From: Acidobacteriales bacterium 59-55
GTDB taxonomy: Bacteria > Acidobacteriota > Terriglobia > Terriglobales > Acidobacteriaceae
NCBI GenBank assembly: GCA_001897435.1
Contig: MKSV01000004.1
Coordinates: 62,001 to 126,000, forward strand
Reading direction: 5' to 3'
DNA: 64,000 nucleotides
This document shows, piece by piece, positions 24,484-49,700 of this stretch (the first letter of the stretch is position 1; every line of letters starts with the position of its first letter). The notes under the pieces were generated by a model. It was not told where the DNA came from and ran no database searches. It saw only the letters and a list, made by a program, of their open reading frames with translations. Made by a program: the position numbers and the translations under genes.

Positions 24484-24560
24484 GGCGGTGTAGCTCAGAT
24501 GGTTAGAGCGACGGACTCATAACCCGTAGGTCGGCAGTTCGATTCTGCCCACCGCCACCA
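24484..24560 (+). tRNA. tRNA with anticodon CAT (tRNA-Met, elongator type)
   Basis: A complete cloverleaf is readable. The acceptor stem is GGCGGTG/CACCGCC, the D arm is GCTCAGATGGTTAGAGC, and the anticodon loop is CTCATAA. The T arm is GGCAG-TTCGATT-CTGCC and the 3' CCA is encoded. CAT anticodons serve elongator Met or, after lysidine modification, Ile-AUA; the sequence alone does not fully settle this. It lies between divergent kdsB and the ctpA-like gene. Confidence 0.93.
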
Positions 24561-46306: not shown

Positions 46307-47089
46307 TCAGGACTTGATTTCCTTGGGTTTGCGGCGGGAGGGGTGGACGAGGAAGGCGACGCCGACGCCGACCATGTAGAGGGCGAGCATGGGCGTGGCG
46401 AAGAGGCACATGCTGACCGGATCGGGCATGGGGCAGATGATGGCGGCGATCAGGAAGATGACGAGGATCGCATAGCGGATGTGTCTGATCAGGAATTTGG
46501 CGTCGACGATGCCGAAGAGCGAGAGAAAAAAGATGAGGATAGGCAGCTCGAAGGTGATGCCCAGCCCGAGGATGATGGCGAGGAAGAAGCCGGTGTAGTC
46601 CTCGATGGTGATAATGGGGTGGAAGTCCCTGCCGAAGTCGCCGATGAGGACCTTGAGCGCGCCGGGGAGCACCCAGCGGTAGCCGAACCAGGCACCGGCG
46701 AGGAAGAGGCCGACGGTCGCGCCCATAAAAGGAAAGACGTAACGCTTCTCGTTGGCGTACATGCCGGGCGAGATGAAGAGCCAGACCTGGTAGAGGATGA
46801 AGGGCGAGGCGAGGATGGCGCCGCCGACCAGCGCGGTCTTGAGGTAGAGGTTGAGCGGATCGGTGGGGTGGGTGAAGTTGAGATCGATGTGCAGATTGGT
46901 GAGGGGCTGCTGGATGTAACCGTAGAGCCGCTCGTGGAAGGCGTAGGCGACGGCGAAGCCGACGAGCAGATAGATGGTGGCGCGGATGAGGCGTTTGCGC
47001 AGCTCCCCAAGGTGCTCCATCAGGCTCATGCCGGGGAGTTCGGCGCGGTCGGTGACCGCGGTTCGGGCGCGATCGACAAAATCAGCCAT
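46307..47089 (-). CDS. tatC: Sec-independent protein translocase TatC
   Basis: TatC, with TatB, recognises twin-arginine signal peptides and builds the translocation site in the inner membrane. This 260-residue protein has six hydrophobic segments. Family motifs are SLMEHLGELRKRLI at the N terminus (with the functional Glu), FISPGMYANEKRYVFPF, and the conserved Glu in LGLGITFELPILIFFL. The start overlaps the upstream tatB-like gene by eight bases. Substrates in this window include the exported enolase-family dehydratase and TIM-barrel isomerase, and possibly the sulfatase. Confidence 0.95.
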   Translation of the reverse strand: MADFVDRARTAVTDRAELPGMSLMEHLGELRKRLIRATIYLLVGFAVAYAFHERLYGYIQQPLTNLHIDLNFTHPTDPLNLYLKTALVGGAILASPFILYQVWLFISPGMYANEKRYVFPFMGATVGLFLAGAWFGYRWVLPGALKVLIGDFGRDFHPIITIEDYTGFFLAIILGLGITFELPILIFFLSLFGIVDAKFLIRHIRYAILVIFLIAAIICPMPDPVSMCLFATPMLALYMVGVGVAFLVHPSRRKPKEIKS

Positions 47090-47711
47090 GGAGGGATGCC
47101 TCGGCTACGTTGTCCGGCGCGGGCGCTGCGGTCTGATCGGCAGTCTTCTGTGGCTCGGGAGCGCGCGGGATGGAGGCGAAGGCCTGCGAGATGGAGGAGC
47201 TGGCTACGGGAAGGCCGGTGGAGGGTGGCATGAGTTGGAGGTCGCCCGAGGTGGCGATGGGCAGCGGCTCTGTAGCAGATTCGGCGGCGGGCTCGGCAAA
47301 AGATGCAGTGGCGGATTCAGCGGCAGGCTCGGCGAGCGATTCGGTATAGCCTCCGTCACCATGTCCGGTCCAGTCGTTCTGATCCTCGTCTCCGAAGGGG
47401 TGCATGTGGGGATGCTCTTCGAGCGGCTCCGCGTTTGGATCGGCGATGGTGTGCTCGGTGATATTTTCGCTGCCGTCGGTGATGGCGGGAACGATCGGGG
47501 CAGCCGCTTCCATTTCGGCGATCTTTTTCTGCTGTTCGGCCTGTTCGGACATGCGCAGCTCGTCTTCCATCTGCATGCGGAACTCGTTGGAGGCGCGGCG
47601 GAACTCGGCCATGAGCTTGCCCAGTTGACGGGCGAGCTCGGGCAGCTTCTTCGGGCCGAAGAGAAGCAGGGCGAGAAAGAAGATGAGTGCGCTGTCCTGA
47701 AAGCTAGGCAT
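47082..47711 (-). CDS. tatB: Twin-arginine translocase subunit TatA/TatB
   Basis: This 209-residue protein has a short N-terminal membrane helix (ALIFFLALLLFG), a hinge PKKLPELARQLGKLMAEFRR and an amphipathic, charged helix to about residue 70. A long acidic, low-complexity tail follows, containing a direct repeat of AEPAAESAT at about residues 127-148. FGPKKLPELAR and the length suit TatB better than TatA, but TatA/TatE cannot be excluded. It is coupled to tatC by an eight-base overlap. Confidence 0.86.
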   Translation of the reverse strand: MPSFQDSALIFFLALLLFGPKKLPELARQLGKLMAEFRRASNEFRMQMEDELRMSEQAEQQKKIAEMEAAAPIVPAITDGSENITEHTIADPNAEPLEEHPHMHPFGDEDQNDWTGHGDGGYTESLAEPAAESATASFAEPAAESATEPLPIATSGDLQLMPPSTGLPVASSSISQAFASIPRAPEPQKTADQTAAPAPDNVAEASLHG

Positions 47712-47910
47712 AGTTGAATCTCATCATACGGCTTACGTTGGACGGTAACAAATAGATGTCGTCTCTTGACACTGTTGTAAGATTAATGGTGTAGGACGGC
47801 TGAACCTGAAGAACGGAAGCAATGCGAAAGGCGCATCTTTCGGGAGCGATTTTCGTCCAATGAAGTAGAAGCGGCAACGATAGCCGCTCGCGTATTAAAG
47901 CGTAGTAAGA

Positions 47911-48073
47911 GTTGCAACATCCCCGTGGACTGGATGACGGTTTTAAAGCGAATCGTCATAGCGAATCCGCTGCAACTTAAGTAGTTTCATGCTTTCAACA
48001 TCCCCGTCTCGAAGGCGAAGGACGGTGCCGGCGCCAGCCGACACCAAACGACCTTGTGAGACTGAAGGCGGAG
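47911..48073 (+). promoter_or_regulatory. Tandem class-I NAD+ riboswitch (nadA motif) in the nadA leader
   Basis: Two similar domains precede nadA. Domain 1 (47911-47976) has outer stem GTTGCA/TGCAAC, the core CAACATCCCCGTGGA, a 6-bp inner hairpin (47934-47939 with 47954-47959) and the conserved AGCGAATC before TCCGC. Domain 2 (47991-48069) repeats CAACATCCCCGT, with stems GCTTTCA/TGAAGGC and GTCTC/GAGAC. The pattern matches my memory of the nadA-motif aptamer that binds NAD+ through its ADP part. The last strand of domain 2 (48063-48069) abuts the GGAG at 48070-48073, so ligand binding could hide the ribosome site. Confidence 0.88.
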
Positions 48074-48077
48074 TCTA

Positions 48078-49250
48078 TTGAACGATCTCATGGAAGAGGT
48101 CACGGCAACGGCCGTGGCAGAGCAGGTTGGTGAAAGCTGTTCTCTCGATCACTACCTAATGCAACCGGACCATACGATGGACGCGCGCATTGCCGCGGCG
48201 CGGGCCAAACTGGGCACCGATGTCCTGCTGCTGGGGCACCACTACCAGCGCGACGAGGTGATCCGGTTTGCCGATTTTACAGGCGACAGCTACAAGCTGA
48301 GCAAAGCGGCGGCGGAGGCGAAGGCGAAGTACCTGCTGTTCTGCGGCGTTCACTTTATGGCGGAGACGGCGGACCTGCTGAGCCAGCCGTGGCAGCAGGT
48401 GATTCTGCCGGACCTGAACGCGGGCTGCTCGATGGCCGATATGGCCGAGATCGGGCAGGTGGAGGACTGCTGGGACTCGTTCGAGCGGGCCGGCCTGTTG
48501 GGAGAGAACGACCAGGGCGCGGGTAACAGCGCGAAGGGAATCATCCCACTGACGTATATGAACTCGGCGGCGGCGATCAAGGCCTTTTGCGGCGAGCGCG
48601 GCGGATTGGTGTGTACCTCGTCCAATGCTCGCGGCGCCTTTGAGTGGGCGTTCAAGCGGGCGGAGAGGATTCTGTTTCTTCCCGATCAGCATCTGGGGCG
48701 GAACACGGCGTTTGCGATGGGGCTTCAGGCCGGCGAGATGGCGGTCTGGGATCCGTTCCAGATCAACGGCGGTTTGACGCCGGAGAAGATGCGCGCGGCG
48801 AAGGTGATCCTGTGGAAGGGGCACTGCTCGGTCCACCAGCGATTTTTGCCGGAGCATGTGGACCGGGTGCGGCGCGAGGAGCCGGGGATGCAGGTGATCG
48901 TGCATCCGGAGTGCCGCTGGGAGGTGTGCAGGAAGGCGGACACGGTTGGATCGACGGAGCGGATCATCAAGACGATCGAAGCTGCTCCCGAGGGCACCAG
49001 CTTTGCCGTGGGCACGGAGATTCACCTGGTCAACCGGCTGGCGAAGCGGTTTGCGCCGTTGGGCAAGCGGGTGATTACGCTCGACGATTCGGGCTGCCTG
49101 TGCACGACGATGTACCGCATCTCGCCGCAACACCTGGCCTGGGCGCTGGAGAATCTGGCCGAGGGTCGCGTGGTGAACCGCATCAAAGTAGACGATGAGG
49201 TGAAACAGTGGGCCCGGGTGGCGCTGGACCGGATGCTGGAGATCGTATGA
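48078..49250 (+). CDS. nadA: Quinolinate synthase
   Basis: NadA condenses iminoaspartate with dihydroxyacetone phosphate to quinolinate in de novo NAD synthesis; it is a 4Fe-4S enzyme. The 390-residue protein shows LLGHHYQRDEVIRFADFTGDSY, FCGVHFMAETADLL, the cluster cysteines in LNAGCSMADM, HPECRWEVC and DDSGCLCTTMYRI, and the MYRISPQHLAWALENL end. TTG 48078 lies four bases after GGAG (48070-48073), whereas ATG 48090 is too far from it, so TTG is preferred. It is probably controlled by the tandem NAD+ riboswitch immediately upstream. NadB and NadC are not in the window. Confidence 0.95.
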   Translation: MNDLMEEVTATAVAEQVGESCSLDHYLMQPDHTMDARIAAARAKLGTDVLLLGHHYQRDEVIRFADFTGDSYKLSKAAAEAKAKYLLFCGVHFMAETADLLSQPWQQVILPDLNAGCSMADMAEIGQVEDCWDSFERAGLLGENDQGAGNSAKGIIPLTYMNSAAAIKAFCGERGGLVCTSSNARGAFEWAFKRAERILFLPDQHLGRNTAFAMGLQAGEMAVWDPFQINGGLTPEKMRAAKVILWKGHCSVHQRFLPEHVDRVRREEPGMQVIVHPECRWEVCRKADTVGSTERIIKTIEAAPEGTSFAVGTEIHLVNRLAKRFAPLGKRVITLDDSGCLCTTMYRISPQHLAWALENLAEGRVVNRIKVDDEVKQWARVALDRMLEIV

Positions 49251-49256
49251 GAGAGG

Positions 49257-49700
49257 ATGGATGTGGGTAAGACGTTTACATTGAGCGAAGCGCAGACGAT
49301 GCTGCGGGTGCTGGAAGCGCTGTTGCGGAAGGCGCAGGCAGCGGCATCGCGGGTGGATGCGTTGGGGAGGGAGATGCAGGAGCTGAGCTACCGCATCTTC
49401 CTCTCCGGCGGAATGCAGGTGGACGTAACCGTGGCGGCTCGGCGGCGGGCTGAGCGCGACAAGGCCGAGCAGGAGACCAAGGACACGCTGGCCGAGATCG
49501 AGGCTATCGGGGTCGAGGTGCAGGACCTGGAGGAAGGGCTGCTGGACTTTCCCTGCGTGATGGACGGCCGGACGGTGATGCTGTGCTGGAAGCTGGGCGA
49601 GGACGCGATCGGACACTGGCACGATGCCGAGGATGGGTTTGCGGGGCGCAAGCCGCTGGATGGTCGGTTTGGCAAGCCGGAGCGGGAACGGCTGAATTAA
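49257..49700 (+). CDS. DUF2203 family protein
   Basis: This 147-residue protein has a coiled-coil-prone first two thirds (TLSEAQTMLRVLEALLRKAQ). The diagnostic C-terminal part is GVEVQDLEEGLLDFPCVMDGRTVMLCWKLGEDAIGHWH. This is the DUF2203 family, whose function is not established. It starts six bases after nadA, so it is co-transcribed and would be under the same NAD+ control. It could hint at a redox or cofactor-related role, but nothing catalytic is visible. Confidence 0.87.
   Translation: MDVGKTFTLSEAQTMLRVLEALLRKAQAAASRVDALGREMQELSYRIFLSGGMQVDVTVAARRRAERDKAEQETKDTLAEIEAIGVEVQDLEEGLLDFPCVMDGRTVMLCWKLGEDAIGHWHDAEDGFAGRKPLDGRFGKPERERLN

Follow-up and report, generated by a model that had tools for sequence, protein, structure and literature searches.

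Riboswitches of the NAD+-I class (nadA motif, Rfam RF03013) are built from two tandem bulged stem-loops with a ACANCCCC bulge, a seven-pair P1a helix and, in domain 1, a GYG junction. They precede nadA in acidobacterial hosts and carry the Shine-Dalgarno site in the P1' helix of domain 2. The class is reported to repress when NAD+ is abundant, as summarised in PMC10702441 (this paper, PMC7297122 and PMC7708056 are cited throughout for the consulted sections). A domain from Koribacter was used in PMC7297122, the ribosome site already falls within P1' in the models of PMC10702441 and PMC7708056, and those two papers dispute ligand binding by domain 2. The Aai RNA of PMC10702441 has a 6-nt interdomain linker and no P1b' helix. 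Two further systems invite comparison. The NAD+-II (pnuC motif) riboswitch is likewise reported, in the parts of the literature consulted, to sense NAD+-related ligands, but differs in its association with pnuC and in its fold. The tandem glycine riboswitch, named as a parallel in PMC10702441 (consulted sections), also joins two homologous domains by a linker, but its ligand and fold are different.

The locus considered here lies in a 64 kb stretch of DNA (the window) from a soil acidobacterium, in which two adjacent RF03013 matches occupy positions 47910-48069 (Table 1). Both exceed the gathering cut-off of 37.5 bits, with E-values of 4.3e-11 and 2.2e-7 on 6 kb and of 4.6e-10 and 2.3e-6 across the whole window; the matches are far beyond chance. 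A preliminary description, made from the letters alone, had read a tandem NAD+-I riboswitch here and had proposed a search with the Rfam nadA covariance model; that search was run, both domains pass the cut-off, and with nadA downstream the reading holds. The CAACATCCCCGT sequence that it reported in both domains is read at 47915-47926 and 47996-48007, and the letters of its matching helices are found where it placed them. A genome-wide search gave no third RF03013 match in addition to the tandem pair, and none of 14 control genomes matches the model. Apart from this pair, the 64 kb window has one Rfam match above gathering, a tRNA at 24484; the nadA family is the only riboswitch family matched, and there is no glycine riboswitch match.

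The anatomy of the element is that of its class. Both domains have the ACANCCCC bulge, the seven-position P1a of domain 1 places the GYG junction (here GCG) opposite the C4 bulge, the layout of domain 1 agrees with the description in PMC7297122 (consulted sections), the pair stands before nadA, and the ribosome binding site lies within the 3' strand of P1'. The host also fits: among the best 80 of 374 NadA relatives, titled records are mostly from Granulicella, Edaphobacter and other acidobacteria, with one titled Rhodanobacteraceae. Unlike the Aai RNA, the window has a 13-nt linker and a long inner hairpin in domain 2. It departs from the class in a chance-like repeat in the P1b tip and in one C-A mismatch in P1a; this mismatch, at P1a pair 6, is common to 3 of 143 loci, and 109 of the 143 have no P1a mismatch at all. 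Folded alone, each domain is matched in stability by 1 of 200 dinucleotide shuffles, and the whole leader (47798-48095; z -2.00) by 8 of 200. The element is thus an ordinary member of an already described class with its usual gene, and it adds little to that class.

Table 1. Features of the nadA leader and neighbouring genes, in window positions
Feature	Position	Strand	Details
TatA-like gene, divergent from nadA	47082-47711	-	PF02416
NAD+-I riboswitch domain 1 (ADP-binding domain)	47910..47977	+	RF03013, 54.6 bits; fold z -3.14; layout as in PMC7297122 (consulted sections)
Domain 1 P1	47910-47916/47971-47977	+	AGTTGCA with TGCAACT
Domain 1 bulge ACATCCCC	47917-47924	+	
Domain 1 P1a	47925-47931/47964-47970	+	6/7 pairs standard, one C-A mismatch
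Domain 1 GCG junction	47961-47963	+	domain also has a P1b hairpin
Interdomain linker, 13 nt	47978..47990	+	
NAD+-I riboswitch domain 2	47991..48069	+	RF03013, 42.0 bits; fold z -2.90; extended inner hairpin
Domain 2 P1'	47991-47997/48063-48069	+	GCTTTCA with TGAAGGC
Domain 2 bulge ACATCCCC, same as domain 1	47998-48005	+	
Domain 2 P1a'	48006-48010/48058-48062	+	GTCTC with GAGAC
Shine-Dalgarno site GAAGGcGG	48064..48071	+	best duplex with the genome's 16S 3' end, -7.9 kcal/mol
nadA, quinolinate synthase, TTG start	48078..49250	+	PF02445, 1.7e-97; TIGR00550, 301.6 bits (cut-off 262.9)
DUF2203 gene	49257..49700	+	PF09969, 2.4e-37; six bases past nadA stop

Control of nadA is best read as translational. 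The 3' end of the genome's own 16S rRNA was located (CCTCCTTTCT), and its best duplex with the leader has five of its seven paired bases within the 3' strand of P1'; GGAG (48070-48073) alone gives about -6 kcal/mol with the same tail. The preliminary description had the final helix abut the ribosome site at this GGAG, which is nearly right yet understates the overlap, since most of the paired Shine-Dalgarno bases lie inside P1' itself. The arrangement recurs among relatives. Among loci with an assigned start, 53 of 54 from the Edaphobacter/Granulicella genus and 93 of 96 from elsewhere have a best Shine-Dalgarno duplex that runs across the 3' strand of P1'. The start codon assigned to the 54 genus loci is TTG in 43 of them, and in 50 it comes 8 nt after P1'. 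Domain 2 does form a stable hairpin upstream of the gene, a point in favour of transcription termination, but no terminator-like site was found in 47690-48110 and only 8 nt separate P1' from the start codon, which makes termination in place of translational control extremely unlikely. Translational regulation, as the preliminary description had supposed, agrees with the Shine-Dalgarno overlap, the 8-nt spacing and the lack of a terminator-like site in that interval.

Our main reading, to which we give a probability of about 0.93, is that the nadA-DUF2203 5' leader carries a tandem NAD+-I (nadA) riboswitch of canonical form, in which an NAD+/ADP ligand would drive closure of P1' and turn nadA translation off. 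With plentiful NAD+, or another ligand that bears ADP, domain 1 would bind the ADP part, and the bound domain would favour P1' formation, directly or through docking with domain 2. Because P1' contains most of the Shine-Dalgarno bases, these would then be held and nadA translation would fall. The sequence at this locus shows both domains, the conserved pocket bases of domain 1, the Shine-Dalgarno overlap, the fixed start spacing and a leader free of terminator-like sites; ligand binding and repression are published for relatives, and the signalling route from domain 1 to domain 2 is inferred, as is shared control of DUF2203. In the energy model P1' has a mean pair probability of 0.98 in the window, where the AAGGC bases are 1% unpaired, but among relatives the mean is only 0.50 for 54 loci of the genus and 0.49 for 95 from elsewhere, and it exceeds 0.9 in only 17 and 28 of these, respectively. 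Predicted P1' formation across relatives is not reliable in this model, which counts against the main reading, as do the disputed ligand binding by domain 2, the binding of ATP, the P1a mismatch, the C13 variants and the genomes that give no match.

The identity of the cellular ligand is less clean than the preliminary description, which named an NAD+/ADP-moiety sensor, had implied. The family, the tandem order and the gene context stand; the specificity does not stand so firmly, as NAD+ is bound by the full-length RNA no more tightly than ATP or ADP, with no discrimination against ATP (PMC10702441, consulted sections). Crystals of domain 1 show the ADP part only (PMC7297122, consulted sections), and the window has these conserved bases unchanged in bulge and junction, so that the same RNA could sense total adenine nucleotide (ADP/ATP) in the cell instead of NAD+. 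This is unlikely: in 152 of 153 loci the tandem is followed on its own strand by nadA, a gene of NAD+ biosynthesis (the remaining locus ends at a contig edge), and the reported repression by the class accompanies abundant NAD+.

Comparison of tandems across the family fits the published models. From 161 loci, 152 tandems were parsed, after setting aside eight that missed the strict pattern and one that was too short (L126); pair counts used 142 of the 152 rows, and linker statistics and P1a counts used 143 each. The 5' strand of P1' is GCTTTCA in all 152 parsed tandems, and its 3' strand is TGAAGGC in 125 and TGAAAGC in 23. The automatic choice of this 3' strand was wrong in L018, L053, L116 and L136, so the remaining four odd strands are partly artefacts. 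Domain 1 P1 has 14 different 5' strands (142 rows), with two-sided exchanges at positions 1 (G-C, A-U, U-A), 3 (U-A, C-G) and 5 (G-C, U-G), while its penultimate pair (position 6), a reported ligand contact, is C-G in 142/142. The fixed P1' 5' strand beside a co-varying domain 1 P1 would fit selection on P1' both as a stem and as a lock on the ribosome site, in a sample recruited entirely by the Rfam model, which favours conserved sequence equally in both domains. This constancy, set against the covariation of P1, bears on what domain 2 does. Inspection by eye of the eight loci off the strict pattern found a changed C13 in each (numbering after PMC7297122): to U or A in domain 2 of seven (L092, L093, L096, L106, L120, L130 and L146) and to U in the domain 1 ACANCCCC bulge of L150 only. 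Replacing C13 of domain 2 by A reportedly impairs regulation (PMC10702441, consulted sections), and the seven natural domain 2 variants are ready test cases for one-ligand versus two-ligand models. In three family loci (L050, L052 and L056), domain 2, judged by eye, lacks a GYG junction and consists only of P1', the bulge and a very short hairpin.

The element is common within its genus and family, and in the phylum sample it passes the cut-off only in that family. In the Edaphobacter/Granulicella genus, 54 of 62 genomes match, with two matches in each (own genome included), and eight have none; in a family sample, 140 of 200 genomes match RF03013 and 60 do not. A phylum sample of 396 genomes yielded 38 with a match; the 36 above the cut-off all belong to the host family, and the two below it are weak (27.7 bits) and come from other families. 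Eight family genomes have a single match, and loci from three of them were examined as candidate single-domain riboswitches and rejected: L092 is in fact a tandem whose domain 2 has an altered C13, L126 is cut by a contig end, and L136 has unread bases (N) inside domain 2. Among the eight genus genomes without a match, three have no NadA match, four have a single one at 53-55% identity, and in the last nadA lies at a contig edge. Best-segment NadA identity is 70-86% in genus loci having the riboswitch, compared with the divergent 53-55% in those four, so the switch seems to accompany the nadA that is usual for the genus. The divergent NadA, 53-55% identical to that of the window, is found in L173, L174, L175 and L176.

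How domain 1 might signal to domain 2 directs attention to the interdomain linker. The genus linker consensus, GCAGTGCAT, is complementary to CACTGC at the domain 1 P1a/P1 3' strand; in the window the complement is weaker and includes G-U pairs. This complementarity might reflect an anti-aptamer strand or simply a conserved linker, and the consulted parts of PMC7297122, PMC10702441 and PMC7708056 contain no description of it. If the genus linker paired with the P1a/P1 3' strand without ligand, domain 1 would pass through an anti-aptamer state and be a true two-state switch. The duplex is stronger than expected from composition, with a mean of -6.66 kcal/mol compared with -3.05 (sd 0.27) for shuffled linkers, none of 100 being as good (43 distinct rows). 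Linkers swapped between genus genomes, however, pair nearly as well (mean -6.48; 10 of 200 swaps reach the observed value), which leaves little sign of co-evolution, and no compensatory changes between linker and P1a/P1 3' strand were seen by eye. In the nine loci examined, the best fold lacking P1 carries a penalty of 2.9 to 7.3 kcal/mol, the anti-aptamer pairing has a mean pair probability of at most 0.11, and the complement is weak in the window. Family members outside the genus show a small effect (-2.97 compared with -2.53 shuffled, 0/100; 36/200 swaps as good; 89 rows). We therefore regard a two-state domain 1 of this kind as improbable. A fuller scheme for Edaphobacter/Granulicella, in which the linker (GCAGUGCAU) would pair with CACUGC in the apo state and be freed by ligand, thereby signalling domain 2 to close P1', is very improbable; if true, it would supply the missing signal path of the class, at least in one lineage.

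Two other roles for the linker were tried and rejected. Pairing with the bases after the Shine-Dalgarno site, suggested by the whole-leader fold, is no better in a genome's own combination (-2.91) than in swapped ones (-3.19; 183 of 200 swaps match or beat it), and shuffled linkers do as well in 13 of 100 cases (43 genus rows). Docking with domain 2 through a general linker copy of the GYG junction is a genus trend only: 13 of 49 genus rows have a pentamer of the junction again in the linker, where shuffles predict 3.2, and 4 of 94 other rows do, where they predict 3.6. The only family-wide linker features seen are a purine at -4 and a T at -1.

The DUF2203 gene is probably on the same transcript as nadA, and it may plausibly share riboswitch control. 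Of 81 long loci tested, 70 have a same-strand DUF2203 match beyond nadA in the downstream direction, including 43 of 45 in the genus. On the other side of the leader, a sigma-70-like promoter sequence, TTGTTA-17-TATGAT (47723-47751, minus strand), faces the TatA-like gene.

The preliminary description had also drawn attention to an unusual inner loop of domain 1 that repeats AGCGAATC. The letters are real, with copies at 47947-47954 and 47960-47967, but the first copy covers the loop and the start of the P1b 3' strand in the variable P1b tip, and its AATC half is paired in P1b in the minimum-energy fold, so that it is partly stem. Among 145 parsed domain 1 sequences the repeat occurs in the window itself and in none of the other 144; one other locus, L099, has a different 8-nt repeat. 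When the 68-mer was plainly shuffled 20000 times, 299 of the shuffles (1.5%) contained an exact 8-nt repeat. Absent from the other 144 domains compared and of a kind that shuffling produces, the repeat looks like chance and was rejected as a meaningful feature.

Upstream of domain 1, at 47832-47860 (plus strand), the window has a GCATC ... CGTCYAA pair in the form CGCATC, 16 nt, CGTCCAA. The exact pair occurs in 26 of 54 genus leaders, spaced by 16 nt in 22 of these and by 17 nt in the other 4, and the CGTCYAA half in 42 of 54 genus leaders, 14 of 99 other leaders and none of 87 coding control windows. The near-constant spacing leads us to read it as a putative DNA element of promoter-like type. 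It does not define a genome-wide set, with 12 matches (at most one mismatch) compared with 14 for the reversed control. The upstream leader was also considered as additional RNA structure and rejected, the consensus fold of the 54 genus leaders having three pairs in a region where the alignment is poor. Between this pair and domain 1 the window has an AGCGGC/GCCGCT hairpin (47870-47888, plus strand), and similar hairpins can be seen by eye in many genus leaders.
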